The notes: generated by a model from the sequence alone, not told the origin. A stretch of DNA of 64,000 nt from Candidatus Melainabacteria bacterium (GCA_003963305.1 RXJR01000027.1:335-64334); one strand, 5' to 3'. Positions 33,942 through 48,347 are shown, counted from the first letter of the stretch. Numbers and translations are program-made.

Positions 33942-36635
33942 TTAACCGGATTTCTCCGCGAGGGCTTGCTTGAGTTGTGAGAAAGCAGCTCCGATTTTGC
34001 TTGGATCTTTGCCGCCAGCCTGCGCCACCTGAGGCTTTCCGCCTCCGCCTCCACCGCAGACAGCTGCGAAATCCTTAACTAAATTACCTGCACTTATCCC
34101 ATCTTTAACAAGCGGGTCGGCCACACCTGCTGCAATAGAGACTTTATCGGGTCCGGAAGCAGAGGCGAGCAAAACGACCGTAGCGTTGCTCTGATTTCTC
34201 ATTTTTTCTACTGCACTCTTCAATCCTTCAGGAGTCATGCCAGGCAATTCTCCAGCGATCAAATCGATGCGCCCCAGTTTCTCAGGACGCAAGCTGGAAA
34301 CCCGCACCAGAGCGAGTTCTTCTTCACGCGATTGCAAAACTTTGTCTTTTTGCTTCAACTGCTCTTGCAGTCTTTCAATTTGAGCTGCCAGGTCAGCCGG
34401 CTTGACTCGCAAGATGCCTGAGGCATCGTTGAGAACAGACATGCTCTGAGCAATGTGATTCCAGGCAGCCGGTCCGGCCAGCGCCTCGACGCGTCTGACA
34501 CCAGATGCGATACTGCCTTCAGAGATGATCTTAATCGGTCCGATCTCACCCGTGCTCGAGACATGAGTGCCACCACAGAACTCCAGACTGACATCGCCCA
34601 TCTTCAAGACGCGCACGATATCACCGTACTTTTCGCCAAACATGGCGACAGCTCCAGTCTTCTTAGCTTCGTCGAGCGGCATCTCTTCAGTGATTACAGG
34701 ATAGTTGCTGCGTACCCATTCGTTCATAACCGATTCGACTTTCTTCAATTCGGCGGCAGTCGGCTGGCGCTCGAATGAGAAGTCGAAGCGCATCGTCTGT
34801 GGACCGACCTGCGAACCAGCCTGAGCCACGTGGCTGCCAAGCAACTGCCTGATGGCAGCGTGGAATATGTGGGCAGCGCTATGGTGCAGCATAGTCGCAG
34901 TGCGCCGTTCACGGTCGACGCTGGCGGTGAGTTCCTGACCGGGCTCAATCAAGCCGGACATAGCGCGCACTTTGTGCACGTGGAGACCTTCGTGCTTTTT
35001 GGTATCAAGCACATTCAGACGAGCGTCACGATTTTCCAACACACCGGTATCGCCAACCTGTCCACCTGATTCAGCATAGAACGGTGTCTCGCTCAAGACA
35101 ACCTCGACTTCTTCGCCCTCTTCTGCATGGTCGACGAGTTTGCCGTCTTTGACGATAGCAAGCACGTTTCCTGGCGATTCGAGAGTTTTATAGCCTGTAA
35201 ATTTCGTCTTTCCGTGTTCTTTCAAAACCTTTCCGAAAGCTTCGTCACCGGCAATGATGACGTTGAATTTGCTTCCTGCAGAAGCTTCTTCATGAGCTTT
35301 TCTCGCTTCAGCAAATCCAGCCATGTCAACGGTCTTCTTGTGCTCATCTGCAATCTCGCGAGTCAGCTCGATTGGAAATCCATAAGTCGAGTAGAGATTG
35401 AAAGCATCTTTGCCCGGAATTTCGGCAGCATCGCCCTCCAGCAATTCATTCAGCAACGTCATACCGCGGTCGATTGTCTTTGCAAAACGTTCTTCTTCGT
35501 CTTTGATCACTTGCGCGATCAACTGCTCATTACGCAATTCGGGATAATGCGAGCCGTAGAGCTCCACCACCTTTGGTACCAACTTGTAGATGAACGGTTC
35601 GGTAATTCCGAGCAAACGACCGAAGCGAGCGGCTCTGCGCAAAATGAAACGCAAAACATAACCACGACCGATATTGCTCGTACGCACTCCGTCAGCAACC
35701 AGGAAAGTGACTGCACGAGTGTGATCGGAAATGATTTTCAAGTAACTATCGCGCTTAACCTCGGGCTTGACCCAATCTGCAGCTCTCGGAACGCCGCCTG
35801 TATACTCGACCCCGGCAAGTTTCGCCGCCTCTTGCAAGATTGGAAAGAACAGATCAGTTTCGTAGTTGTTGTCCTTTTTCTGCAGAATCAAAGCAACACG
35901 TTCGAGCCCTGAGCCGGTATCAACGTTCTTCTTCGCCAGTTGGGAGAAATTGCCGTTTTCATCTTTGAACATTTCCATGAAAACGAGATTCCAGAACTCC
36001 AGATAGCGGTCGCAATCGCAAATCCCGATGCCGCATTTGGCAGGATCAGAGCTGCATCCAAATTGCTCGCCGCGATCGTAATAGATCTCAGAACAGGGTC
36101 CACATGGGCCTGTTGGTCCAGGCGGTCCCCAGAAGTTGTCCGACCGACCCATTCTGATGATGCGCTCGGCTGGCAAACCTACAGTCTTGTTCCAGATTTC
36201 GAATGCTTCCTCGTCTGGATCGTTTTTGTCATCACCTTTGAATATAGTGACGTACAGCTGCTCTGCTTCAAGTCCGAGATCTTTGGTTACAAATTCCCAG
36301 GCCCATGGAATCACTTCTTTCTTGAAGTAATCGCCGAAACTAAAATTGCCGAGCATTTCGAAAAAGCTGTGGTGACGAGCGGTTCTGCCTACATTTTCGA
36401 TATCTGAGTCTTTTCCACCGGCGCGAGCACACTTCTGAACCGTGACAGCGCGTGGAGGCTCAGGAGCAGGCGCCTGCCCGAGAAAAATGGGCACAAATTG
36501 CACCATTCCGGCTGATGTCAAAAGCAACGTCGGATTGTCAGGAATCAAACTGGAGCTGGGCAAGTGGGCATGACCGCGCTTATCACGGAAATACTCGATA
36601 AACTTGTCTCTTATTTGCGACCCTGACAGTGGCAT
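33942..36635 (-). CDS. alaS: Alanyl-tRNA synthetase
   Basis: An 897-residue class II synthetase that charges tRNA-Ala. Domains in order: catalytic core with HAHLPSSSLIPDNPTLLLTSAGM, NVGRTARHHSFFEMLGNFSFGDYFK and FWGPPGPTGPCGPCSEIYYD; tRNA-recognition helices; editing domain with HHSAAHIFHAA and the zinc CGGTH; and the C-Ala domain with a Gly run (VCGGGGGGKP). Length is typical (about 875). The ORF can extend to 36737, but the family start MPLSGSQIRDKFIEYF and GGAG before the ATG at 36635 show that the first 34 codons are not translated. It is divergent from nadK. Confidence 0.97.
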   Translation of the reverse strand: MPLSGSQIRDKFIEYFRDKRGHAHLPSSSLIPDNPTLLLTSAGMVQFVPIFLGQAPAPEPPRAVTVQKCARAGGKDSDIENVGRTARHHSFFEMLGNFSFGDYFKKEVIPWAWEFVTKDLGLEAEQLYVTIFKGDDKNDPDEEAFEIWNKTVGLPAERIIRMGRSDNFWGPPGPTGPCGPCSEIYYDRGEQFGCSSDPAKCGIGICDCDRYLEFWNLVFMEMFKDENGNFSQLAKKNVDTGSGLERVALILQKKDNNYETDLFFPILQEAAKLAGVEYTGGVPRAADWVKPEVKRDSYLKIISDHTRAVTFLVADGVRTSNIGRGYVLRFILRRAARFGRLLGITEPFIYKLVPKVVELYGSHYPELRNEQLIAQVIKDEEERFAKTIDRGMTLLNELLEGDAAEIPGKDAFNLYSTYGFPIELTREIADEHKKTVDMAGFAEARKAHEEASAGSKFNVIIAGDEAFGKVLKEHGKTKFTGYKTLESPGNVLAIVKDGKLVDHAEEGEEVEVVLSETPFYAESGGQVGDTGVLENRDARLNVLDTKKHEGLHVHKVRAMSGLIEPGQELTASVDRERRTATMLHHSAAHIFHAAIRQLLGSHVAQAGSQVGPQTMRFDFSFERQPTAAELKKVESVMNEWVRSNYPVITEEMPLDEAKKTGAVAMFGEKYGDIVRVLKMGDVSLEFCGGTHVSSTGEIGPIKIISEGSIASGVRRVEALAGPAAWNHIAQSMSVLNDASGILRVKPADLAAQIERLQEQLKQKDKVLQSREEELALVRVSSLRPEKLGRIDLIAGELPGMTPEGLKSAVEKMRNQSNATVVLLASASGPDKVSIAAGVADPLVKDGISAGNLVKDFAAVCGGGGGGKPQVAQAGGKDPSKIGAAFSQLKQALAEKSG

Positions 36636-36913
36636 GTTCTTCTCCAAATTAATGTGCCTAGAGTGGATACCGGCGGCTCTGCAAGCGCACGACAGTCGGT
36701 CTGTCTTGTGCAGACAACGACAATCAAGCACACTCAACTGAAGCTCTATTGAGTATATCCTACAAATGCCGTTATTTTGCGTAAGGTAACGGAACGCGAA
36801 AAGCAGACACAGCCTTGAGTTTACTTTGTTCGGGCGGAATCAAGGATGTAGCAATGATGCGCCGGATCTGCTACCCTTCCAGTCTGAGAATTTCTGGCTA
36901 CAGGCGGCTCCCG

Positions 36914-37810
36914 GTGAAACTTCGCAAGGTTCTGATTCTTCACAAGAAGTCCACCTATCAAATTCAAGCCTTAGAGCACAGAGAATCACGTTTTTTAAAA
37001 CTTTTAGAAGAGGGAAGCGACGTTGTCACACGCGTCAAAATCGCTCATAACGAGCACGTAGAAACCCTCGAACTACTTGAGAAGGAACTGATCAAACGCC
37101 AGGTCGAATATCGCTCCATAGCGCGCGCCGAGCTGACACAAAAGATTACAGATGTCGACCTGGTCATATCTGTGGGTGGTGACGGTACTTTTCTTGACGC
37201 TTCTCACTCAGTCGACGGCATTCCAGTCTTAGGCATCAACTCATCCAGCTCTTCTAGCTTCGGTCACTTCTGCCTTGGCAATCAGAAAAATCTCAAGGAA
37301 GTGTTGGAGCAAATCGAAGACGGAGAACTGACAACAAGACCGATTCTCAGGCTGGAGCTCTGGCTTAATGGCTCCCTTTTGCCGGAACTGGTACTAAATG
37401 AAGTGCTCGTCAGCCATTCAAACCCGGCTGCAACAACGCGCCTCTTCATGGAAATCAATGGCGAGCGCGAAGAGCAGCGCTCTTCGGGTGTCTGGATAGG
37501 CACACCGGGCGGCTCGACCGGCTCACTCAGATCGGCTGGTGGTGAAGTTTTACCAATCACCGATAACCGTTATCTGTATATCGTTCGTGAACCTTGTATG
37601 CGCCCGGGTGAGCACTATAAATATCTAAGAGGTATCCTCGACCATTCTCAGGAGATGCGCATCGTTTCTCAAATGAGAACGGGAGTCTTGCACATCGACG
37701 GTCAACATATAGACTATCAATTTGGGCTTGGTGATGAGCTGCTGATCAGAGGAAGCGAACACTACCTTCGCGCTTTTATCGCAGATGACGTCAATGCCAG
37801 GTTTGTTTGA
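36914..37810 (+). CDS. nadK: NAD kinase
   Basis: About 298 residues. It phosphorylates NAD to NADP with ATP or polyphosphate. Seen: the catalytic ISVGGDGTFLDAS, the NE motif in LVLNEVLVSH, and WIGTPGGSTGSLRSAGGEVLPI, the family signature (usually STPTGSTAY). The Tyr after GST is replaced by Leu, and the family resembles the eukaryotic mitochondrial-type NADK2 group more than E. coli NadK in the N-terminal LHKKSTYQIQALEH. The start is uncertain: GTG at 36914 with AGGCGG six bases before it, or ATG at 36854 with AAGGA. Homology begins just after 36914. Only 23 bases separate it from murT. Confidence 0.85.
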   Translation: MKLRKVLILHKKSTYQIQALEHRESRFLKLLEEGSDVVTRVKIAHNEHVETLELLEKELIKRQVEYRSIARAELTQKITDVDLVISVGGDGTFLDASHSVDGIPVLGINSSSSSSFGHFCLGNQKNLKEVLEQIEDGELTTRPILRLELWLNGSLLPELVLNEVLVSHSNPAATTRLFMEINGEREEQRSSGVWIGTPGGSTGSLRSAGGEVLPITDNRYLYIVREPCMRPGEHYKYLRGILDHSQEMRIVSQMRTGVLHIDGQHIDYQFGLGDELLIRGSEHYLRAFIADDVNARFV

Positions 37811-37833
37811 ATCCGAAAATTTGTGAGGTCGTA

Positions 37834-39222
37834 ATGGATCCTTCTGACACAGTTGCAGTCGTTGCCGGTAAATTTACGGCGCGCGCAATTCGTTTCATGG
37901 GTGCAGGATTGGGCTCGAACCTGCCCGGCAAGTTAGCAAGGCGTTTTGCTCCCACTGTTTTGACAAAACTCTCACAGCAAGCCAAAAGCGGCGTCATCGC
38001 AGTGACCGGCACGAACGGCAAAAGCACCACATCTGGTTTACTCTCGTCAATTTTGCGGGCTGCCGGTCTGGAGCTTGTGCACAATAAGCAAGGTGCAAAT
38101 CTGGTGGCAGGCATAACCGCCAGTCTGGTTGAGTCTGCCAGCTGGAGCGGCAAGCTCTCTGCCGACTATTGCCTCTTCGAAACAGACGAAGCAGCACTGC
38201 CTTTGATCGCCAGGGAAGTAAAGCTCACGCAGGTCGTGGTCACGAATCTATTCAGAGATCAGCTCGATCGCTTCGGAGAACTAGATACCACTGCCAAATT
38301 AATAGCCAGAGGAATTCTAGAAAATAAGACTCAGGCAATTCTCAACGCTGATGACCCCAATGTCAGTCAGCTCGTGCCTGAATGCCCGCGCATATTCTTT
38401 GGCATCGAGTCAGTGAAAGGACAAACAGAGAAACAGAGCACCATGCCTGATGGCATGGGTCCGCAATCAATGGAACTCTCCTACTGCGCTCAATGCGGTG
38501 CGGAGACAAAATACTCACTCGTGTTTTACGGGCAGCTCGGACACTGGAGCTGCACCAGTTGCGACTATAAACGCCCGGTTCCACGAGTGAAAGCCAGTGA
38601 CGTCGAAGTTGGACCGACCGGCTCCACTTTCACCCTCACAATTGATGAACGGCAAGGCGACGCCGTGGTACCGCTGCCAGGCATGTTCAACGTCTACAAT
38701 GCTCTCGCCGCCGCGGCAAGCGCCGCTTCGATCGGCGTTACGATCGAGACTATCAGGCAGGGCTTGAAAAACTATCAAACGCTCTTCGGACGCTCAGAAC
38801 GAGTGGTCATCTCAGGCAAGAACGTCTTGATTCAGTTGATCAAAAATCCGGCTGGTGCCAGTCAAGCAATCAGTGCGGTGGCAGCCGATCCCCAGGCACG
38901 AATTTTGATTGCCATCAACGACAATTATGCTGATGGAAGAGACATATCATGGCTCTGGGATGCTGATTTCGAACAACTTGCCGCTCACACGAAAAAACTG
39001 ATTGTCAGCGGGCAGCGCGCAGAAGACATGGCCGTGAGAATGAAGTATGCAGGAGTTGCCAACGAGAGCATCCATACCGAACCGAAACTTGATAAAGCTC
39101 TCGATCAGGCACTAGACATGGTGCAATCAGGAGAGACTTTGTGGATTCTTCCAACCTATACATGTTTGCTTGAGATGCAAAAGATCCTGAAAGCCAGAGG
39201 AGTGTCACTGGCGGGCACCTGA
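37834..39222 (+). CDS. murT: MurT, lipid II isoglutaminyl synthase subunit
   Basis: A 462-residue Mur ligase-family protein. MurT with the glutaminase GatD amidates the D-Glu of lipid II stem peptide. Seen: phosphate loop VTGTNGKSTTSGLL, the Mur core FETDEAALPLI and VTNLFRDQLDRFGELD, a Cys4 zinc ribbon (CAQC..HWSCTSC) inserted in the middle domain as in MurT, and the C-terminal DUF1727 motifs LIKNPAGASQAI and NDNYADGRDISWLWD. The ATG at 37834 with GAGG six bases before is chosen over a TTG at 37807. It follows nadK at 23 bases. The expected gatD is not next to it, since the next gene is on the other strand. Confidence 0.92.
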   Translation: MDPSDTVAVVAGKFTARAIRFMGAGLGSNLPGKLARRFAPTVLTKLSQQAKSGVIAVTGTNGKSTTSGLLSSILRAAGLELVHNKQGANLVAGITASLVESASWSGKLSADYCLFETDEAALPLIAREVKLTQVVVTNLFRDQLDRFGELDTTAKLIARGILENKTQAILNADDPNVSQLVPECPRIFFGIESVKGQTEKQSTMPDGMGPQSMELSYCAQCGAETKYSLVFYGQLGHWSCTSCDYKRPVPRVKASDVEVGPTGSTFTLTIDERQGDAVVPLPGMFNVYNALAAAASAASIGVTIETIRQGLKNYQTLFGRSERVVISGKNVLIQLIKNPAGASQAISAVAADPQARILIAINDNYADGRDISWLWDADFEQLAAHTKKLIVSGQRAEDMAVRMKYAGVANESIHTEPKLDKALDQALDMVQSGETLWILPTYTCLLEMQKILKARGVSLAGT

Positions 39223-39231
39223 ACACGGCTC

Positions 39232-39957
39232 TCACTTCGGTTTAGCTTTCTTATCTTCCGGCTCGCGCATGTAGTCGAGAGCATCGGGCGACGGGGAGGG
39301 AACATTCATCCCGTTTGTGCGCAACGAAACAAAGTTAGCCACACGCAGAAAGTTTTTTGGTTTAGCGAAAGTTTGGGGCGGCACGTATGCGCGTTCAATC
39401 GACTTGGTGCGGATGTGAGTAAATCTGCCACCATTTTCATTGATGCGCGCGGCACGCAGGGGCAACCCGTAGCCTGGTGGCATCTCGGAAAAGCTCATGA
39501 AAATGGCACAGGCGTCAGACAGCCTGGCTGGTACTGGAAAAGCTTTCGTCGCCCAGAACTCGAATGTCTGCCGACCTTTCTTATTTGCCACCTCGTATTT
39601 GTTAGCCTTGACACCGCAGATATCGAAATCACCGCCTTTCTTGATCGTATATTTGGCTGCCGTCTCCTTTCGACGTGAAGTATGCATGCTGAATGCTTCC
39701 ATCGGCAGCTGCAAATAGCGTTTGTTCTTTGGATTGAACAAATACATATCGTAATCAGGTGGCATGATCAGAAGCGTACAATCTTCCGTGTCGATACGAA
39801 TTGCATCTTTCGTCAAGGTCGTCTCAAGCACTCCCTGCTCGTCGCTTATCTGCAGAAGACGCCACCCATTCACAGGCGGAGCAGCGCAGACAGCACTGCC
39901 AGAGAAAAATGTCAGTCCCAAAATTCCTAAAATGCTCAGACGGCGAAGTAGTTTCAT
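39232..39957 (-). CDS. Secreted protein, first member of paralogous pair
   Basis: A 241-residue protein with a signal peptide (to about AVCAA). It shares with the gene at 42156 the blocks NGW..(Q)xSDExGVLET, ICGVKANxY, LxDACxIFxSxxEMxPGxGLP, and RAYxxPxTFxKPKxFxRVxNF, then ALDYM near the end. The middle part (TLLIMPPDYDMYLFNPKNKR) is beta-rich and recalls LolA or DUF4412-type lipid-binding sheets, which is only a shape match. Two conserved Cys (ICGV, DACAI) may pair. It is divergent from a Ser/Thr kinase gene, just as its paralogue is, so the two genes of each pair are probably controlled together. Function unknown. Confidence 0.7.
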   Translation of the reverse strand: MKLLRRLSILGILGLTFFSGSAVCAAPPVNGWRLLQISDEQGVLETTLTKDAIRIDTEDCTLLIMPPDYDMYLFNPKNKRYLQLPMEAFSMHTSRRKETAAKYTIKKGGDFDICGVKANKYEVANKKGRQTFEFWATKAFPVPARLSDACAIFMSFSEMPPGYGLPLRAARINENGGRFTHIRTKSIERAYVPPQTFAKPKNFLRVANFVSLRTNGMNVPSPSPDALDYMREPEDKKAKPK

Positions 39958-39988
39958 TACCCTGCATGTTTTTTGACGCCTGTTTTAA

Positions 39989-40021
39989 TATGCCCAGATA
40001 AAGCTCGACTTTCCGGGCATA
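39989..40021. promoter_or_regulatory. Inverted repeat between secreted-protein and kinase genes
   Basis: Perfect 7-base arms TATGCCC (39989-39995) and GGGCATA (40015-40021) lie in the 90-base gap between the divergent starts. Placement suits a site that controls both genes. The second module copy does not show the same sequence in its gap. Confidence 0.35.
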
Positions 40022-40047
40022 GTAATCCTACAAATAATGCAACAAAG

Positions 40048-42099
40048 ATGGATGCCAACTTAGAGCCCCAGAAAAATACAAAATCCCAGCGCGTATCATG
40101 GCTGGAGAGCTCAGAGACCACAGAGTCGACTGAGTCAGTGGCTTCTAATATCGATCCCTTTCTTGAAGCGGCGCGTGCCACCTCGGAGCGCCTGGAAATT
40201 CTCGAGCCGATTGGCAAAGGCGGCATGGCTGTCGTCTATAAAGCCCAACACATGGTGATGAACAAACCAGTGGCAGTCAAACTGCTGCTGCCTCACCTGA
40301 CCAGCGATCCGACCAGCTTGAAGCGCTTTCAGCAAGAAGCACAGGCGACCGCAACGCTGTCACATGCCAACATCGTGCACATTCACGATTGTGGTTTAAG
40401 CAACGGCCAGGCCTTCATCATCATGGATTTTGTCGAAGGCAAAAGTCTGGAGCAAATCGTGCGCGAAGAGCCGCTAACACCGGAGCGAGCCGTCGACATA
40501 TTCGTGCAAATTTGCGAGGCGCTCAATCATGCCCACGAGCGCAACATTATTCACCGCGACCTCAAGCCAAGCAACGTCATGCTCACGACTGATAAAAACG
40601 GGTTCGATGTGGTTAAAGTCGTAGACTTCGGCATCGCCAAGCTTCTGACCAACGACGATGGCATGACGATGAACAATCTCACCCAGACAGGCGATGTCTT
40701 CGGCAGCCCGCTCTATATGAGTCCGGAGCAGTGTGCGGGCAAGAAATTGGACAACCGTTCCGACATCTACTCGCTGGGATGCCTGATGTACGAGGCGCTG
40801 ACGGGATCTGCGCCCATAGTTGGAAAAAATTTCCTGGACACAATGCAAAAGCACCTCACTGATATGCCGGCACCGTTTCCGCCGGAGCTGACCAAAAATC
40901 CACTGGCCAAAAAACTGCAAGTAATAATTTTCACCTGCCTGGCTAAAGACCCTGCTCACCGCTATGCCAGCATGAAAGAGATATCGGTCGACTTGAGAAG
41001 CGCAGTAGCCAATACCAGCACCAAAGGCGGTGCGTGGAAAGAAAAGGAGAAGTCGCTCGAACAAATCATCAAAAAAACCAACTCGAAAAAAAATAAGTTT
41101 CAACAGATCGCCGCTTTCGGCGCTGCCGTGATCTTGATTCCTTGCTCATTCCTGCTCGTTACTGATATCACCACTTCATCTCCTTACGAAAATGTGCCCG
41201 TATTTCACATGGTCGATCTCAGTCAACCCAAGCAGAGTCTGACCTACGAGCACGACTTGAAAATTGTCTTGAACGACAAGTCGACTACATTGAGCGCAAT
41301 GCCGACTCTGATGCAGAGACTACGCACCGGAGACACTCTCGGGCAATTCTATATGTCAAATGGAAAATGGAATGAAGCAATTGCCGAATATGAAAAACTG
41401 GCAAAATTAGATGCTGGGCTGTCACGCTCCTGCGATTTCCAGAAGTACCTCGGCATCTGTCAGTTGCACTTGAACAATTTCGAAAGCGCTGCTCAACATA
41501 TGCAGACATGCCTTGATTATGTTTTCTCATCAGTATATGAGCTGAAAAAACGCGAACACACCAGAGCAAAATTGCAGCAACTCCTGAATGGCATTTATGG
41601 TGTGAACGAACAGATTGTGCGCTCTGTTTTGATCTACCTGGCTGTGATCGCGGAGCAGGAGAAGCGCTTCGATGTGGCGCAACAATACCTCGACGATCTT
41701 CACACCACAGACGAGAGAATTCTGGCCAATCCACATGCAATTGAGAGTTTCTCGGGAGATATTGTTGCTGAGAGCACCAGGAACTCAGCCTATCGAGCCG
41801 ATTTGCAACGTCTGAATAAAAATCCGGCGGCGGCAGACGAGCTGCAAAAACTTGCACAAAAACCTGATGACACCACGGTGACAGACTGGAAAGCCAAGCT
41901 CGACCTGACCCTCGGGCTTGCCAACATGCAAACAGCTAAGTACAGCGATGCCGCAAAGGCTTTCAAAAATGGGCTCAACGAAAAAATCGAAGAGCCGGAA
42001 ATTAAAAAAGCTTTGAACCGTGAATATTGTCGAGCCCTGTGGGCGAATGGACAGTTTCTTCAAGCGATTTTCGAAAAGCTAACTCATCTCAATTCTTAA
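40048..42099 (+). CDS. Membrane Ser/Thr protein kinase with TPR-like C-terminus (copy 1)
   Basis: A 683-residue PknB-type kinase. Residues 50-320 are the kinase domain: GKGGMAVVYKA loop, Lys78, alpha-C FQQEA, IIHRDLKPSN with Asp171, VVDFGIAKLL, and SPLYMSPEQ activation end. A membrane helix follows (about 355-373), then an outside helical repeat region of TPR type (WNEAIAEYEKLAKLDAGLSR, YSDAAKAFKNGLNEK). The ATG at 40048 is used because MDANLEPQ aligns with MENDLEST, the start of the copy at 43022; the TTG at 39973 is rejected. It is divergent from a secreted protein. I infer a sensor kinase that reads envelope proteins through its outside domain. Confidence 0.88.
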   Translation: MDANLEPQKNTKSQRVSWLESSETTESTESVASNIDPFLEAARATSERLEILEPIGKGGMAVVYKAQHMVMNKPVAVKLLLPHLTSDPTSLKRFQQEAQATATLSHANIVHIHDCGLSNGQAFIIMDFVEGKSLEQIVREEPLTPERAVDIFVQICEALNHAHERNIIHRDLKPSNVMLTTDKNGFDVVKVVDFGIAKLLTNDDGMTMNNLTQTGDVFGSPLYMSPEQCAGKKLDNRSDIYSLGCLMYEALTGSAPIVGKNFLDTMQKHLTDMPAPFPPELTKNPLAKKLQVIIFTCLAKDPAHRYASMKEISVDLRSAVANTSTKGGAWKEKEKSLEQIIKKTNSKKNKFQQIAAFGAAVILIPCSFLLVTDITTSSPYENVPVFHMVDLSQPKQSLTYEHDLKIVLNDKSTTLSAMPTLMQRLRTGDTLGQFYMSNGKWNEAIAEYEKLAKLDAGLSRSCDFQKYLGICQLHLNNFESAAQHMQTCLDYVFSSVYELKKREHTRAKLQQLLNGIYGVNEQIVRSVLIYLAVIAEQEKRFDVAQQYLDDLHTTDERILANPHAIESFSGDIVAESTRNSAYRADLQRLNKNPAAADELQKLAQKPDDTTVTDWKAKLDLTLGLANMQTAKYSDAAKAFKNGLNEKIEEPEIKKALNREYCRALWANGQFLQAIFEKLTHLNS

Positions 42100-42155
42100 A
42101 TGAAAAACGAAGCTCAGAGATAAATCTCTGTTCCCGAATTTGCTCATTGAATTTC

Positions 42156-42902
42156 CTACTTCTTCTTATTTTCTTCGAGCATATAGTCGAGAGCATGCGC
42201 GCCTGGTATGGGAACGTTTTCGCCAGAGCTGCTAAGAGCAACGAAATTATCTACCCGGGCAAAACCTTTCGGTTTAGAAAATGTTTCAGGACCAATGTAA
42301 GCGCGCTGAAGGGAACGTGTGGTCACGTATGCGAACTTGCTCCCGCTCGGGCTCAGACGAATCGCTGAAAGCGGCAAACCATGTCCTGGAGTCATTTCCG
42401 GCACACTGAAAAAAATCATGCAGGCGTCTGCCAATTTTTCCGGCACGTTTAAATTTCTCGTTGCTGAAAATTCGAAACGAGGCTTCAGATTTGGTTTTCT
42501 TGTATCGGTGCACAAATAGCGATTGGCCTTTACACCACAGATAGTGACATCAGGCTGTTTGTCGACGCGTATGTGTGGAGTAATCTGATTCGGGTGCGTA
42601 TGGACTATAAACGCTTCAGATGGCTCTTCGATATACCTCTTGGTTTTCTTGTTGTAAATAAAGAGCGGATATTTCGGAGGCAACAAAAGTATTGTCAAAT
42701 CTGGGGTATCGAGACGCAAAGACTTGGAGGTCAGCTGCGTCTCCAGCACACCGTATTCATCACTCGTCTGCTTCATTATCCAGCCATTGGAGGGCGGCTC
42801 AGCAAGCGACTTCTGGCCCATGCAGACCAACAGAAAAGCTATCATCGCAGATGCAACTAAAAGACTGAGGCGCATATGTTTTTGATCCGGGCAAGGTTTC
42901 AT
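42156..42902 (-). CDS. Secreted protein, second member of paralogous pair
   Basis: A 248-residue protein and clear paralogue of the gene at 39232. Shared blocks include YGVLETQLTSKSLRLDTPDL, ICGVKANRY, LADACMIFFSVPEMTPGHGL, and RAYIGPETFSKPKGFARVDN. Identity over the mature part is roughly 45% by eye. A signal peptide is present; the ATG at 42875 (MRLSLLVASAMIAF) would give a more standard one than the ATG at 42902. It lies between two kinase genes, 56 bases after the stop of copy 1 (convergent) and divergent from copy 2. Secreted, envelope-located, function unknown. Confidence 0.7.
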   Translation of the reverse strand: MKPCPDQKHMRLSLLVASAMIAFLLVCMGQKSLAEPPSNGWIMKQTSDEYGVLETQLTSKSLRLDTPDLTILLLPPKYPLFIYNKKTKRYIEEPSEAFIVHTHPNQITPHIRVDKQPDVTICGVKANRYLCTDTRKPNLKPRFEFSATRNLNVPEKLADACMIFFSVPEMTPGHGLPLSAIRLSPSGSKFAYVTTRSLQRAYIGPETFSKPKGFARVDNFVALSSSGENVPIPGAHALDYMLEENKKK

Positions 42903-43021
42903 GTCACAATTCAGTCTATGCCAAACTTACATTTTACGCCATTTGTAGAAGTCGAAAAACAGGCAATACTCTAGAATAGACTAACGTACCAGCCGCCATC
43001 GTCAGTTCTTTCGAGCAATAC

Positions 43022-45046
43022 ATGGAAAATGACCTAGAGTCTACGCGCAAAGAACAAGCACAAGATGCAGGCGAAATTGCCTGGCTCGATGATTCTTCAG
43101 ACGGTTTGCCACCGCTGAAAGACCCATTCTGGGCAACTTTGAGTTCCATCTCCGATCGCCTGCAAGTTCTCGGACGCATCGGCAAAGGCGGCATGAGCGT
43201 CGTTTACAAAGCACAGCATCTGGCAATGAAGAAGCTGGTTGCTGTGAAATTGCTGTTACCCCACCTGACCAGTGACGCACGCAGCCTGAAGCGCTTTCAG
43301 CTGGAAGCCCAGGCCACTGCCAATCTAAATCATCCCAACATAGTCCGAATTTATGACTGTGGAATGAGCCAGGACCAGGCTTTCATCATCATGGACTTTG
43401 TCGAAGGAGAAAGCCTGGAGCAGCTCCTCGATCGTGAAAGTAAGTTAACACCGGTGCGGGCGATGGGCATCTTCGCCGAGCTTTGTGAAGGAATGAATCA
43501 CGCCCATGAAAGCGGCATCATTCACCGGGACCTTAAACCAAGCAATGTCATGCTCACTGTCGATTCAGACGGAATCGAGCACGTAAAAATTGTAGACTTC
43601 GGTATAGCAAAGCTATTGGTTGACGACGAAGATGGCAGCACCAGGCATAAACTGACACAAACCGGCGATGTTTTCGGCAGCCCGCTCTATATGAGCCCTG
43701 AGCAGAGTGTCGGTGGAAAAATCGACAAGCGTTCGGACATATATTCGATCGGATGCTTGATGTACGAAGTCTTAGCAGGACGACCACCAATCGTCGGCAA
43801 AAACTTCCTCGATACCATGCAAAGGCACTCGACCGACGTACCAAAGCCATTTGCTGAAAAATCCGATGCGAAACTGATGACGCGCCTGCAGACGATCGTC
43901 TTTACCTGCATGGCTAAAGACCCTGCCGATCGCTATCAAGACATGAAGGCAATACTGAAAGACTTGCATGCAGCAGCTTCCGGAAAAGAAAGCACCGCCA
44001 TCGGTGCATGGAGTAATAAAGAAAAGTCCTTAGCGAAAATCATCAAGAAAGAAAGCAAGACAAGCCGCATCATCAAAACTGTTGCTCTTTCTGCCGCTGG
44101 TCTTTTCCTGGCACTTTCCGGATTTGCTCTTGCCGAAGAGATCAAACGTATAGACAGTCCTTCCAGTTATCAGAGCCAGAACGCTCCTCTTTTCAAACTC
44201 GTATCATTGCCCAAACCCACGCTTTTCGATAATTACGAAACACAGAAACAAAACATAGTCCTGGCTATAGACCGCACCGAAGCTGCAGACGACGTTCAAC
44301 AGGAGGAGGGTCTCGAGACTGCCGCACGCATGTACTTCGCTTACGGTAAGTGGCAGGAAGCAAAACGCCAGTATATGAAACTGCTCAAACTCCCAGTCGG
44401 GCTTGAGAAACAAGGTGATTATCACCTCGGTATTGGTTTGTGCTGCCTGGGAGAGAACAAACTTGCCGCAGCAAAAGATGAGTTTAAGACCAGCATCGAC
44501 TACTACCTGAAACTACAAGACGGCTACCAGAGAGGCGACGAGCATCCAAACATTCCCACTCTTCTTAGTGGCATCTACGGTATCAAGGCACGACAACCGA
44601 TCAGTTACCTGGCACTGACTGAAGAACTCATGGGCAATCTTTCCCAGGCAGCCGCCAACGCAAAAGTACTGGTCATTTCAGGACGTTCAGACGACGATAG
44701 TGAGCGCCCCGCTGAATTCGCCTACATAGCCGACCTGAATCGGCGCATGCAAAAGTACGGCACAGCTGTGGTTACGTTCGAGAATCTAAAAGCCAGTGAA
44801 AGTGTTGTTCCCGAAAGAGACTACCGGACGAAACTGTGCTTCGCTATTGGGCTTTGCCTCCTGGCTTCGAATGAACCAGCCAGAGCGGCGACTGTGCTGA
44901 ACGAAGGACTTCAATTAGGGGCAACAGACAAAGACCTTCTGGTGGCGATGGATCATGAGTATCACCGGGCCCTGTGGGAAAGCGGCTATAAGTTCAAAGC
45001 CTTCTTCGAACCCCACCGGCTGAAAGTCGTCAAAGCAGAGCACTGA
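43022..45046 (+). CDS. Membrane Ser/Thr protein kinase with TPR-like C-terminus (copy 2)
   Basis: A 674-residue paralogue of the kinase at 40048, alike in every part. Kinase domain: GKGGMSVVYKA, Lys76, FQLEA, IIHRDLKPSN with Asp170, IVDFGIAKLL, SPLYMSPEQ. The membrane helix (TVALSAAGLFLALSGFAL) lies near residues 353-371. The outside part has TPR-like pairs (WQEAKRQYMKLLKLPVGLEK, PARAATVLNEGLQLGATDK). All residues needed for catalysis are present. The divergent gene at 42156 is its secreted neighbour. The two kinases probably have different inputs, because their outside halves differ much more than their kinase halves. Confidence 0.88.
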   Translation: MENDLESTRKEQAQDAGEIAWLDDSSDGLPPLKDPFWATLSSISDRLQVLGRIGKGGMSVVYKAQHLAMKKLVAVKLLLPHLTSDARSLKRFQLEAQATANLNHPNIVRIYDCGMSQDQAFIIMDFVEGESLEQLLDRESKLTPVRAMGIFAELCEGMNHAHESGIIHRDLKPSNVMLTVDSDGIEHVKIVDFGIAKLLVDDEDGSTRHKLTQTGDVFGSPLYMSPEQSVGGKIDKRSDIYSIGCLMYEVLAGRPPIVGKNFLDTMQRHSTDVPKPFAEKSDAKLMTRLQTIVFTCMAKDPADRYQDMKAILKDLHAAASGKESTAIGAWSNKEKSLAKIIKKESKTSRIIKTVALSAAGLFLALSGFALAEEIKRIDSPSSYQSQNAPLFKLVSLPKPTLFDNYETQKQNIVLAIDRTEAADDVQQEEGLETAARMYFAYGKWQEAKRQYMKLLKLPVGLEKQGDYHLGIGLCCLGENKLAAAKDEFKTSIDYYLKLQDGYQRGDEHPNIPTLLSGIYGIKARQPISYLALTEELMGNLSQAAANAKVLVISGRSDDDSERPAEFAYIADLNRRMQKYGTAVVTFENLKASESVVPERDYRTKLCFAIGLCLLASNEPARAATVLNEGLQLGATDKDLLVAMDHEYHRALWESGYKFKAFFEPHRLKVVKAEH

Positions 45047-45163
45047 AAAGCTGAATGCCTTGGCAACCGAAGTAGTTTAAACCTCGGATTGTGGCATATT
45101 GATATTGGTGGATCATACAGTGCCCTCAAAAGGTCCATACGCTTCATAGTGCAATAGGGTTCT

Positions 45164-47158
45164 ATGCTCGGTCCTAACGAAAAAGAAAAGCGCTCGCGCA
45201 CAGACTCGCTGTTTGGAAACGTCGACCCATTGCTGGGTAAGACGATGGGCGGACGCTGGGAAGTGCAGGAGTTTCTGGGCGAAGGCAGTATGAGCGTTGT
45301 TTACAAGGCTCAGGACCTGGAAACCAACGAGCCGGTGGTTCTCAAGATTCTTCACCACCACCTGGTAGCCAATGCCAAAAGCCTGAAACGCTTTGAGCAG
45401 CGAGCCAAAGCGACAATCGACCTGAAACATGACCGCATTGCCAGAGTCATGGACATACACCTCTCTCCCGACGGTCAGGTCTTTCTGGTTGTCGAGCCCC
45501 TGAAGGGCGAGAGTTTAGAAGACCTCCTGGCAAAAACCGGACATTTATCAGTCGATCACGCCGTCGAGATTTTTTCTCAGTCTTGCGAAGCTCTCGAATA
45601 TGCGCACGGCGAAGATGTACTGCATCGAGATATAAAACCAAGCAACATCGTCTTGCTGGAATCAAATGCCATTACCGACGAAGTGAAATTAGTCGACTTC
45701 GGCATCGCGCGCCTGTTGACGGAAGAAGGCGATGACATCAAATCTAGTGGCTATATAACAAGAACCAGGGAAGTCTTCGGCAGCCCCATGTATATGAGCC
45801 CAGAGCAGTGCATGGGCAAGAAACTCGACGCCCGTTCCGACATTTACTCAATCGGTTGCGTCATGTACGAAACGCTTACAGGCAAACCTCCTTTTGTGGG
45901 CAAGAACGTTCTCGAAACTGCCTATAAACACATGAATGAAGCCCCCAAGCCGATGGTCACAGACACCACCTCGGGACGATCTCTGGCCCGCCTGGAATCA
46001 GTAATCTTCAAATGCCTGGCCAAAGATCCAAACGAGCGCTATCAACTCGTTTCCCAGTTGTATCAAGATTTGCAGATGTTGCTCAAAGCCAACGATACGA
46101 CCTGGGTCAACAATGCTTATGCCCTTAAGAAAATTGCCAAAGCCAAGAAACGCGAAAGCCGCAAGTTCGTGATGAGCTTCGAAGTTGGTGTCTTCAGCGG
46201 TGCAGCGCTTTTACTTTTCGCTGTCGTATCGATCTGGTCGTTCATGTTCCTGGGTGCGGATTCACAAGATTATCCAGCCTTCAAAAACGACAAACTATTC
46301 GTTGTACAAGAGCGCCGTCAGCCGCCTGAAGTGCCAGACTTCGGCAGTCAGGAAGAAGCATATAAAATGGATGCTGATTCCGCCAAAAAAGAAAAAGGCG
46401 AGAAAAGCAAAGACTACCTCAACGCCACCTGGCACCTTTATGAGTTGTACAGACGTGCTGGTCACTGGAATGAAGCAGCCGAAGAGTTAGGCAAATTTAT
46501 CGAACTGGCTCCGTCTACCGACCCGTCCATCTCTATTCCAGCCATGTACGCCAAGCAGTCACTTTGCTATTTCCAGCAGAATGAACTTGATAAAGCCTTC
46601 AAGATTGCTATGCAGTCCATTGAAGAATTTGATAAACAGGGAAATACGAAAGACAGTCACTTAAATCTTGTCTACACAATAGTCGGCGACTACTATTCAC
46701 AAAAGAACCAACTGTCTGAAGCTGTCGGCATTTACGACAAGGCTTACCAACTGGCCGATCAGCGAAAGTTGGTGGCACCTATGGACTATGTACAAGCTTG
46801 TGTTCTGCTAGGCGATATTTACAGACGTCAAAACAAACTGCAAGAAGCCGATCGCCTCTACAAACTGGCGATGGATACATCATCTAATTACATAAACGAT
46901 CAGAAGCTTTCGACGACACTATTTCTCGCCAAGGCAAAATACGGATATGGACTGGTTCTTTACGCCGAAGGGAAATACAAAGATGCTGAAGCATCATTTC
47001 GGGAAGCGCTGCAGAGCTGTAAAACCATACCCGCTCCCCTCGGTGGCGAGAAGAGCGGGCTGTATGGAGCTTGTCGCAGGATGATCGTCGAATGTTTGTG
47101 GAAAACAAACCCATTCGCGGCCATATCTGCTCGTTTCGGTAGCGACCCCACCAAGTAG
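45164..47158 (+). CDS. Membrane Ser/Thr protein kinase, divergent third copy
   Basis: A 664-residue protein with the same layout: kinase domain (33-310), membrane helix (about 341-363, GVFSGAALLLFAVVSIWSFM), outside TPR region (WNEAAEELGKFIELAPSTDP, KYKDAEASFREALQSC). The loop GEGSMSVVYKA, Lys61, HRDIKPSN with Asp156 and DFG are kept. The alpha-C helix reads LKRFEQRAKAT where the other two have FQQEA or FQLEA, so the Glu that pairs with Lys61 is an Arg (residue 80). It may use a nearby Glu (78) or be a weak kinase. It has no secreted partner gene of its own and follows copy 2 by 117 bases on the same strand. Confidence 0.86.
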   Translation: MLGPNEKEKRSRTDSLFGNVDPLLGKTMGGRWEVQEFLGEGSMSVVYKAQDLETNEPVVLKILHHHLVANAKSLKRFEQRAKATIDLKHDRIARVMDIHLSPDGQVFLVVEPLKGESLEDLLAKTGHLSVDHAVEIFSQSCEALEYAHGEDVLHRDIKPSNIVLLESNAITDEVKLVDFGIARLLTEEGDDIKSSGYITRTREVFGSPMYMSPEQCMGKKLDARSDIYSIGCVMYETLTGKPPFVGKNVLETAYKHMNEAPKPMVTDTTSGRSLARLESVIFKCLAKDPNERYQLVSQLYQDLQMLLKANDTTWVNNAYALKKIAKAKKRESRKFVMSFEVGVFSGAALLLFAVVSIWSFMFLGADSQDYPAFKNDKLFVVQERRQPPEVPDFGSQEEAYKMDADSAKKEKGEKSKDYLNATWHLYELYRRAGHWNEAAEELGKFIELAPSTDPSISIPAMYAKQSLCYFQQNELDKAFKIAMQSIEEFDKQGNTKDSHLNLVYTIVGDYYSQKNQLSEAVGIYDKAYQLADQRKLVAPMDYVQACVLLGDIYRRQNKLQEADRLYKLAMDTSSNYINDQKLSTTLFLAKAKYGYGLVLYAEGKYKDAEASFREALQSCKTIPAPLGGEKSGLYGACRRMIVECLWKTNPFAAISARFGSDPTK

Positions 47159-47170
47159 ATTACCTACCGC

Positions 47171-47254
47171 ATGGAGCGCCCGCATCCTGCGGGCACCGCA
47201 CCCTCACGCACGAATCCGCCCCCCTCATGGAGCGCCCGCATCCTGCGGGCACCG
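47171..47254. repeat. Two REP-like 28-bp palindromic repeats
   Basis: Identical 28-base copies at 47171-47198 and 47227-47254, each starting atggagcgcccgc. Each holds a perfect 7-bp stem with a 3-base loop (GCCCGCA tcc TGCGGGC). They lie between two convergent genes, 28 bases apart. They may stop transcription from both sides, though no T-run follows, or belong to a dispersed REP-like family. Confidence 0.8.
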
Positions 47255-47258
47255 TCTG

Positions 47259-48347
47259 CTATTGCGGATTCGCAGGTGACTTCTTGTTGTTCAAGTCAGC
47301 AAGCGCGTCCTGAGCAATCTTAGACTTAGGATTGATTTCCAGAGCCTTTTCGTATTGCGTTTTGGCATCGCCTGTTTGACCCTGTTTTGCAAGGAAAGCA
47401 GCATACTGAACGCGTGCAGTCACGTCACGAGGAGTAATCTGCAGTGTCTCTTCGAATGCAGCTTTAGCGCCTTTGGTATCACCATTAAGCGATAGTGCCT
47501 CTGCCAAACGGCGATGAGCAGGTCCAAATTTTGGATCTAACTTGATCGCTTTGCGCTGAGTTTCAATTGCGCCCGGCAGATCGCCTTTCTTCTGCATCAT
47601 CCAACCCAAGCCGCTGAGAGCATTTGGATGCTTGGGAGCAATCTTCAAGGCACTCTTGAAAGCAGCCATGGCGTTGTCTGTTTCGCCTGAATCAGCGTAA
47701 ATGTTGCCGAGATTGATGTAAGACTCCGGCACATCTTTATTGATTTCGATTGCTGCTTTTTCTTCCTTGATAGCGTTCTGGAAGTCATTCTTCTGCGCGA
47801 GCAAAACACCGAGATTGAGATGAGGTGTCGGATCTTTCGGATTCAATTCAGCTGCCTTTTTGTAAGCAGCAATCGCTTCATCAACCTGACCGACGTGAGT
47901 GAGGGCAAAACCAAGATCAAGGTGAGCTCTGAAACTAGTCGGTTTCAGTGCGGTAGCCTCACGGAACTCTTTCAGCGCCAGGTCGATTTTGCTCTGATTT
48001 GCATAAATCTGACCGAGCACTACGTGCGGCAAGAAGTACTTAGGATCGAGTTTAATCGCTTGCTGTTCTTCCAAAATAGCCGTCTCGTAGTCTTCGTTTG
48101 CTGCAAGGGCGGCACCCAATCTCTGGTGGGCTTTTGCATTGTTTGGTTCGAGTCGAATCGCTTCTCTAAATTCGGCGATTGCTTCTTTTACTTTGCCGCG
48201 ACCATAAAGCGATTCTGCTTTCCGCATCTGAGCGCTCTCAGGTGGTGCTTCATCGGCAAGAGCCGCTAAAGGAGCACTGAAAGCTGTGGCAGCGAACATG
48301 ACTGCAAGCGCACTGTTCAATGCCAATTTGTTTTTGTCCTTACTCAA
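47259..48347 (-). CDS. Secreted TPR protein
   Basis: A 362-residue protein with a signal peptide (to about AALADEA) and then about nine tandem TPR units nearly without linkers (KVKEAIAEFREAIRLEPNNA, KIDLALKEFREATALKPTSF, TDNAMAAFKSALKIAPKHPN and so on). It should form one periplasmic superhelix that binds peptides or proteins. The start is a TTG at 48347 with GGAGG nine bases before; no ATG lies closer to the signal peptide. The C-terminus is a short Asn/Lys tail. It is downstream of deoC on the same strand (77 bases) but is not metabolically related. Confidence 0.8.
   Translation of the reverse strand: MSKDKNKLALNSALAVMFAATAFSAPLAALADEAPPESAQMRKAESLYGRGKVKEAIAEFREAIRLEPNNAKAHQRLGAALAANEDYETAILEEQQAIKLDPKYFLPHVVLGQIYANQSKIDLALKEFREATALKPTSFRAHLDLGFALTHVGQVDEAIAAYKKAAELNPKDPTPHLNLGVLLAQKNDFQNAIKEEKAAIEINKDVPESYINLGNIYADSGETDNAMAAFKSALKIAPKHPNALSGLGWMMQKKGDLPGAIETQRKAIKLDPKFGPAHRRLAEALSLNGDTKGAKAAFEETLQITPRDVTARVQYAAFLAKQGQTGDAKTQYEKALEINPKSKIAQDALADLNNKKSPANPQ

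Follow-up and report, generated by a model that had tools for sequence, protein, structure and literature searches.

RseB and MucB are LolA-fold proteins that hold a transmembrane regulator by its exported part until lipids release them, and the lipid control of docking between MucB and its partner MucA is established (PMC7400510). A second relevant system is found in Actinobacteria, where the exported binding protein GlnH of the GlnH-GlnX-PknG system is conserved together with, and expressed alongside, a Ser/Thr kinase bearing tetratricopeptide repeats (TPRs) (PMC6069109, PMC8546545) and has been proposed to relay periplasmic amino-acid levels to it (PMC6069109). Receptor kinases of the PknB/PrkC type combine a cytosolic Hanks-type kinase, one membrane helix and an exported sensor domain. 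The signals sensed by bacterial receptor Ser/Thr kinases are mostly unknown. Here we describe two neighbouring gene pairs in a 64,000-nucleotide stretch of DNA (the window) from a Candidatus Melainabacteria bacterium (GCA_003963305.1, RXJR01000027.1:335-64334). Unit A (39232-42099) and unit B (42156-45046) each consist of a gene for a secreted protein with a predicted LolA-like fold (secA, secB) that is divergent from a gene for a membrane Ser/Thr kinase (kinA, kinB), and the analysis suggests that the two products form a previously undescribed two-part receptor. The parts of the locus are as follows.

39232-39957, minus strand: secA, secreted protein of 241 residues with a predicted LolA-type fold, partner of kinA; open reading frame with a DUF4412 match and a signal-type N-terminus MKLLRRLSILGILGLTFFSGSAVCA
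39958-40047 (kinA ATG at 40048), or 15 bases with the TTG start at 39973: divergent start region common to secA and kinA, from the sequence
39973-42099, plus strand: kinA, receptor Ser/Thr kinase, from Pfam, hydrophobicity and a model of the exported domain; kinase domain at residues 75-333, membrane helix at residues 379-397, exported TPR domain at residues 398-708
41164-42096, plus strand: exported TPR domain of kinA with 14 helices, from the model and structural matches
42156-42902, minus strand: secB, secreted protein of 248 residues with a predicted LolA-type fold, partner of kinB; open reading frame, identity to secA, and model
42903-43021: divergent intergenic region of 119 bases between secB and kinB
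43022-45046, plus strand: kinB, receptor Ser/Thr kinase, from Pfam and hydrophobicity; kinase domain at residues 48-310, membrane helix from residue 353, exported TPR-type domain after it
36815-39222, plus strand: genes for NAD kinase and, next, a MurT-type ligase; eight genomes keep these neighbours, by which the orthologous locus is recognised
45164-47158, plus strand: kinC, third kinase, also bearing an exported TPR domain but lacking an adjoining secreted partner, from Pfam and orthologues

The four genes, their coordinates and the orientations of both divergent units had been given in a preliminary description and were borne out by the open reading frame calls, to which kinC is an addition. 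The first ATG of kinA is at 40048, and the TTG start at 39973 may be wrong. Both kinases match Pkinase (E 2.6e-51 for kinA and 4.4e-52 for kinB) and TPR families in Pfam, retain the VAVK, HRDLKPSN and DFG motifs and, beyond the kinase domain, contain a single hydrophobic segment (residue 379 in kinA, residue 353 in kinB). With catalytic motifs, a membrane helix and an exported domain, kinA and kinB are thus Hanks-type receptor Ser/Thr kinases. They resemble the PknB/PrkC type in this layout and differ from it in exporting a TPR solenoid and in having a dedicated secreted partner gene; Pfam returned no PASTA repeats in kinA or kinB, and TPR families and the TPR fold are found instead. No match was obtained in an Rfam scan of 36000-48000, and a scan of 39850-43100 for sigma-70-like promoters found none, fewer than in shuffled sequences.

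Pairing of secreted-family genes with kinases was evaluated in 120 regions around family members from about 30 genomes, in which open reading frames were called and kinases were marked with an iterated profile; these include metagenome-assembled genomes (MAGs), whose assemblies may cut off neighbours. A Ser/Thr kinase was the immediate neighbour of 38 of 131 members, or 40 of 129 when neighbours of fewer than 100 residues were dropped. The latter proportion (31%) compares with 32 of 519 background genes (6%) in the same regions (Fisher 6e-13), and among divergent neighbours kinases made up 26 of 58 for secreted members and 5 of 181 for background genes (Fisher 4e-14); these p-values are overstated because the counts treat orthologues as independent, and about 20 separate lineages hold the pair. 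Nine genomes outside this set were also examined, and in 9 of 9 the best family member and a kinase were divergently encoded. The pairs occur in three orientations (24 divergent, 10 convergent and 4 with the secreted gene upstream in the same direction) and in many outer gene contexts, eight genomes having the order NAD kinase, MurT-type ligase, secreted gene, kinase and the rest lying elsewhere. In a tree of 110 kinases, the partner kinases did not form one clade and were drawn from several branches. A single frozen locus was rejected as the whole explanation of the pairs because orientations and contexts vary and the partner kinases do not cluster in one clade. The conserved pairing claimed earlier from the two units alone is therefore found far beyond the window and above background, but kinases are not the family's only setting, and pairing, though frequent, is not obligatory, since 78 of 129 members had neither a Ser/Thr nor a histidine kinase as immediate neighbour.

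The kinases that stand beside secreted genes are of a particular kind. A membrane helix follows the kinase domain in 37 of 38 partner kinases, and the exported part reaches at least 240 residues in 35 of these 38, compared with 35 of 72 unpaired kinases of the window's own genome (Fisher 2.4e-6). Of the three partner kinases with a shorter exported part, two (L118 and L135) are cut by a contig end. Among unpaired membrane kinases, 11 of 16 divergent neighbours had a hydrophobic N-terminus, and for kinases with no exported domain the figure was 4 of 9, numbers too small to judge.

Divergence of the secreted protein followed that of the exported domain. Between units A and B the kinase domains are 70% identical, the secreted proteins 48% (46-48%) and the exported domains 28%, so that the kinase halves are indeed much closer than the outside halves, as had been noticed from the sequence. 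Distances were compared by Mantel tests on 21 representatives of separate pair lineages, and rank tests were chosen since L112, a very long branch, had distorted the Pearson form for kinase domain and secreted protein. Exported-domain and secreted-protein distances were correlated (Spearman 0.51, p=0.0009) and remained so when the kinase domain was allowed for (0.47, p=0.0009), whereas the correlation between kinase domain and secreted protein was 0.22 (p=0.11). With long branches removed, the respective values were 0.47 (p 0.0013), 0.37 (p 0.0097) and 0.34 (p 0.033). Contact between the secreted protein and the exported domain would be expected to leave matched divergence of this sort. A comparison of the partner trees revealed no disagreement, with group-by-group agreement at the tips and poorly resolved deeper forks.

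Both secreted proteins begin with a hydrophobic signal-type segment and share the conserved blocks read earlier from the DNA (ICGVKANK/RY, DACxIF...EMxPGxGLP and RAYxxPxTFxKPK). The model of secB (predicted local distance difference test score, pLDDT, 84.9; predicted template modelling score, pTM, 0.74) contains one half-barrel of about 220 residues past the signal segment and no second C-terminal beta domain. Foldseek searches of the PDB with this model returned LolA (2.3e-7 for 8cgm and 1.3e-5 for 4mxt), RseB (1.1e-5) and MucB (6.7e-5), as well as LprG and EPDR1; the matches to RseB and MucB had a probability of 1.00 and template modelling (TM) scores of about 0.35-0.43. A LolA/RseB-like fold is thus predicted. 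The exported domain of kinA was modelled (pLDDT 90.9, pTM 0.87) as a 14-helix, seven-TPR solenoid whose best structural matches are consensus TPR proteins and the TPR domains of kinesin light chain and LGN, the closest natural ones. Likeness to kinesin light chain, a eukaryotic cytosolic cargo adaptor, is structural only and implies no kinship. The juxtamembrane segment of kinA (41164-41244, the first 27 residues of the exported domain) is extended and confidently placed in the model (pLDDT >90), and it may lie on the solenoid, possibly in the TPR groove.

Relatives of the secreted family in the PDB emerge through fold comparison only; a sequence profile of the family found no convincing one there and no match in NCBIfam. 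Pfam LolA (PF03548) did not match secA, secB or the window's own genome (controls positive in 6 genomes), and MucB_RseB (PF03888) did not match either protein, nor the own genome at E<=1e-3 with positive controls; the same genome holds 14 family copies at E<=1e-3, all counted as LolA-fold paralogues. The preliminary description had called the family unrecognised, a label that has to be tempered: secA lies just over the Pfam cut-off for DUF4412 (PF14371; 21.9 bits against 21.6) and the fold is LolA/RseB-like in the model. secB had no DUF4412 match, and the similarity is weak across the family (7 of 22 members at E<=0.05); a DUF4412 scan of the own genome gave no match, but neither did its positive controls. 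Literature searches returned no paper on DUF4412 and none combining LolA-like, sensor kinase and periplasmic. Most members have a signal-type N-terminus with no lipobox.

In the order, presumably the Obscuribacterales, a search with a 22-member profile found the family in 52 of 53 genomes, with 1-28 copies each. Of 194 genomes drawn from the phylum, the window's genome was the only positive and the 193 others had no member; the genomes listed from this draw are weighted towards a single family of the same class, and absence from the rest of the phylum is therefore likely rather than exhaustively shown. The secreted-family tree has two halves (split support moderate, 85). In the half holding secA and secB, 37 of 62 rows adjoin a Ser/Thr kinase; a predominant location away from kinases, the observation proposed earlier as telling against the pairing, is therefore true of the whole family and not of this half. 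In the other half, 12 of 67 rows lie directly upstream, on the same strand, of a histidine kinase with CHASE3, PAS and HisKA domains (Pfam), a transmembrane sensor class that is unrelated to the Ser/Thr kinases and is counted here in favour of a sensory role. At these 12 loci (L031:1441-4765, L105, L125 and nine others) a response regulator is often next, and several have peptide-type ATP-binding cassette (ABC) permease genes nearby.

These features place each unit close to RseB/MucB with RseA/MucA, in that a soluble secreted protein of LolA-like fold is encoded beside a signalling protein that crosses the membrane once and has an exported domain, and cargo-controlled docking is the proposed action (PMC7400510). 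Unlike that system, the partner is a receptor kinase (Pkinase, membrane helix, TPR) rather than a transmembrane anti-sigma factor, there is no MucB_RseB match, and the secreted protein has a single LolA-type domain (about 220 residues in secB), whereas the RseB/MucB matches are chains of 260-290 residues. LolA/LolB and the LprG/LppX carriers share the fold, and DUF4412 a weak similarity, but the family differs from the carriers in lacking a Pfam LolA match and in its genetic linkage to kinases. The family is thus neither LolA nor RseB/MucB proper, because its sequence matches neither and its partner differs from that of RseB/MucB; it may work like RseB but is not RseB. The GlnH-GlnX-PknG system differs in using a solute-binding fold, a cytosolic TPR domain and kinase, and a separate membrane transmitter, GlnX, whereas kinA and kinB bear their own membrane helix followed by the exported TPR domain.

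Folds of the LolA/RseB type bind acyl chains or an exported segment of a regulator. Each unit would then encode the two halves of a transmembrane receptor: a kinase that crosses the inner membrane, its catalytic domain lying on the inside and its seven-TPR solenoid in the periplasm, and a divergently encoded, soluble periplasmic protein with a LolA/RseB-type half-barrel. The secreted protein would most likely dock on the solenoid of its own kinase and lock the kinase in a single state of activity. Docking, and hence the kinase, would respond to an amphiphilic cargo (a lipid, a lipoprotein or an envelope breakdown product), by analogy with lipid on MucB/RseB altering its grip on MucA/RseA; the periplasmic location, the direct contact, the amphiphile as signal and the sign of the effect are all inferred. 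A functional partnership of some kind between secreted protein and kinase is likely. Whether each secreted protein acts in the periplasm, in the manner of RseB, as sensor or regulator of its own receptor kinase we consider about evenly poised, and the docking mechanism on the RseB model is offered more tentatively, at somewhat less than an even chance. If correct, the pairs predict a signal entry point, namely a pocket of LolA type in a protein docked on the exported TPR domain, for a large set of kinases with secreted partners across an order very rich in such kinases, and RseB-type control would extend from anti-sigma factors to kinases. It is also conceivable, though rather doubtful, that the diversified LolA-fold family supplies interchangeable sensor subunits throughout the lineage to two unrelated kinds of transmembrane kinase, the TPR-solenoid Ser/Thr kinases from divergent genes and the CHASE3 histidine kinases from the same operon.

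Several observations weigh against a sensor dedicated to each kinase. Besides the non-independence of orthologues and the many members with no kinase neighbour mentioned above, most kinases of the own genome, including most with exported TPR domains, have no adjoining secreted partner. The TM-scores of secB to LolA/RseB structures are low (about 0.3-0.46), so the class of fold, drawn from Foldseek E-values and topology, is clear in the model and its details are not. In some lineages exported proteins as a whole may evolve faster, which could partly account for the distance correlation, although the kinase-domain control argues otherwise.

The secreted proteins could instead be general LolA-type carriers of lipids or lipoproteins, with the carrier an output of the kinase or a co-regulated envelope gene rather than a sensor. 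A family with 14 members in the window's genome and up to 28 elsewhere, 60% of them with no kinase neighbour, in a genome where Pfam finds neither LolA nor MucB_RseB and controls are positive, is what such carriers might look like. This explanation is nonetheless unlikely. It is specifically kinases bearing an exported domain that are paired with the secreted genes, and the secreted proteins diverge in step with that domain; if carrier expression were regulated from the cytosol, neither the bias nor the matched divergence would be predicted. Alternatively, a single ancestral pair beside the NAD kinase and MurT genes may have stayed unbroken with no functional meaning, the other pairs having arisen by chance in kinase-rich genomes. 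The gene order common to eight genomes and the 115 Pkinase matches in the source genome are consistent with this, but adjacency is 31% against 6% for the background of the same regions, the pairs occupy many other contexts in all three orientations, a related pair at L080 and L138 has different neighbours on the secreted-gene side, and the trees require several changes per class; a functionless neighbourhood was already disfavoured and is improbable. Finally, the secreted protein might leave the cell or be shed, acting as an intercellular ligand or recognition tag for a neighbour's kinase. Signal-type N-termini with no lipobox and the rapid divergence of the ligand-like proteins and of the exported domains would fit, but the LolA-fold proteins described to date work in the periplasm, or in the lysosome in the case of EPDR1 (PMC6363788), and a seven-TPR solenoid on a single inner-membrane helix would be unlikely to reach beyond the outer membrane. 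This last explanation is very improbable, and the periplasmic receptor remains our preferred reading.

The source genome comprises 7.48 Mb in 44 contigs. The closest named relatives, identified with a narrow family alignment, are the MAGs SZAS-4 (filed under Cyanobacteriota) and palsa_1080 (Candidatus Melainabacteria), which places the source in a non-photosynthetic branch adjoining the cyanobacteria. Duplication of the pair as a unit, as proposed in the preliminary description, agrees with the genus relative G001, in which both units and then a kinC orthologue occur in identical order. In a second relative, G002, unit A and a kinC orthologue are present and unit B is absent. Because the G002 copy groups with unit A in both the secreted and the kinase trees (support 80-89, modest in the secreted tree), the duplication probably predates the genus split, with unit B lost or not assembled in G002. 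The kinC orthologues that come after the pair in G001 and G002 are 87-89% identical, and in eight genomes of the order the NAD kinase and MurT-type ligase genes have stayed together next to the secreted gene.

Other arrangements were seen among the regions examined. At L037, L046 and L061 the secreted gene is convergent with the kinase and downstream of resistance-nodulation-division (RND)-type efflux transporter genes. A protein of 892 residues with TPRs and a caspase-type peptidase domain is divergent from a secreted-family member at L107:4851-7529. Four large kinases of about 870-960 residues stand in tandem on one strand at L183 (G000:C1:175300-189400), a recent local amplification.

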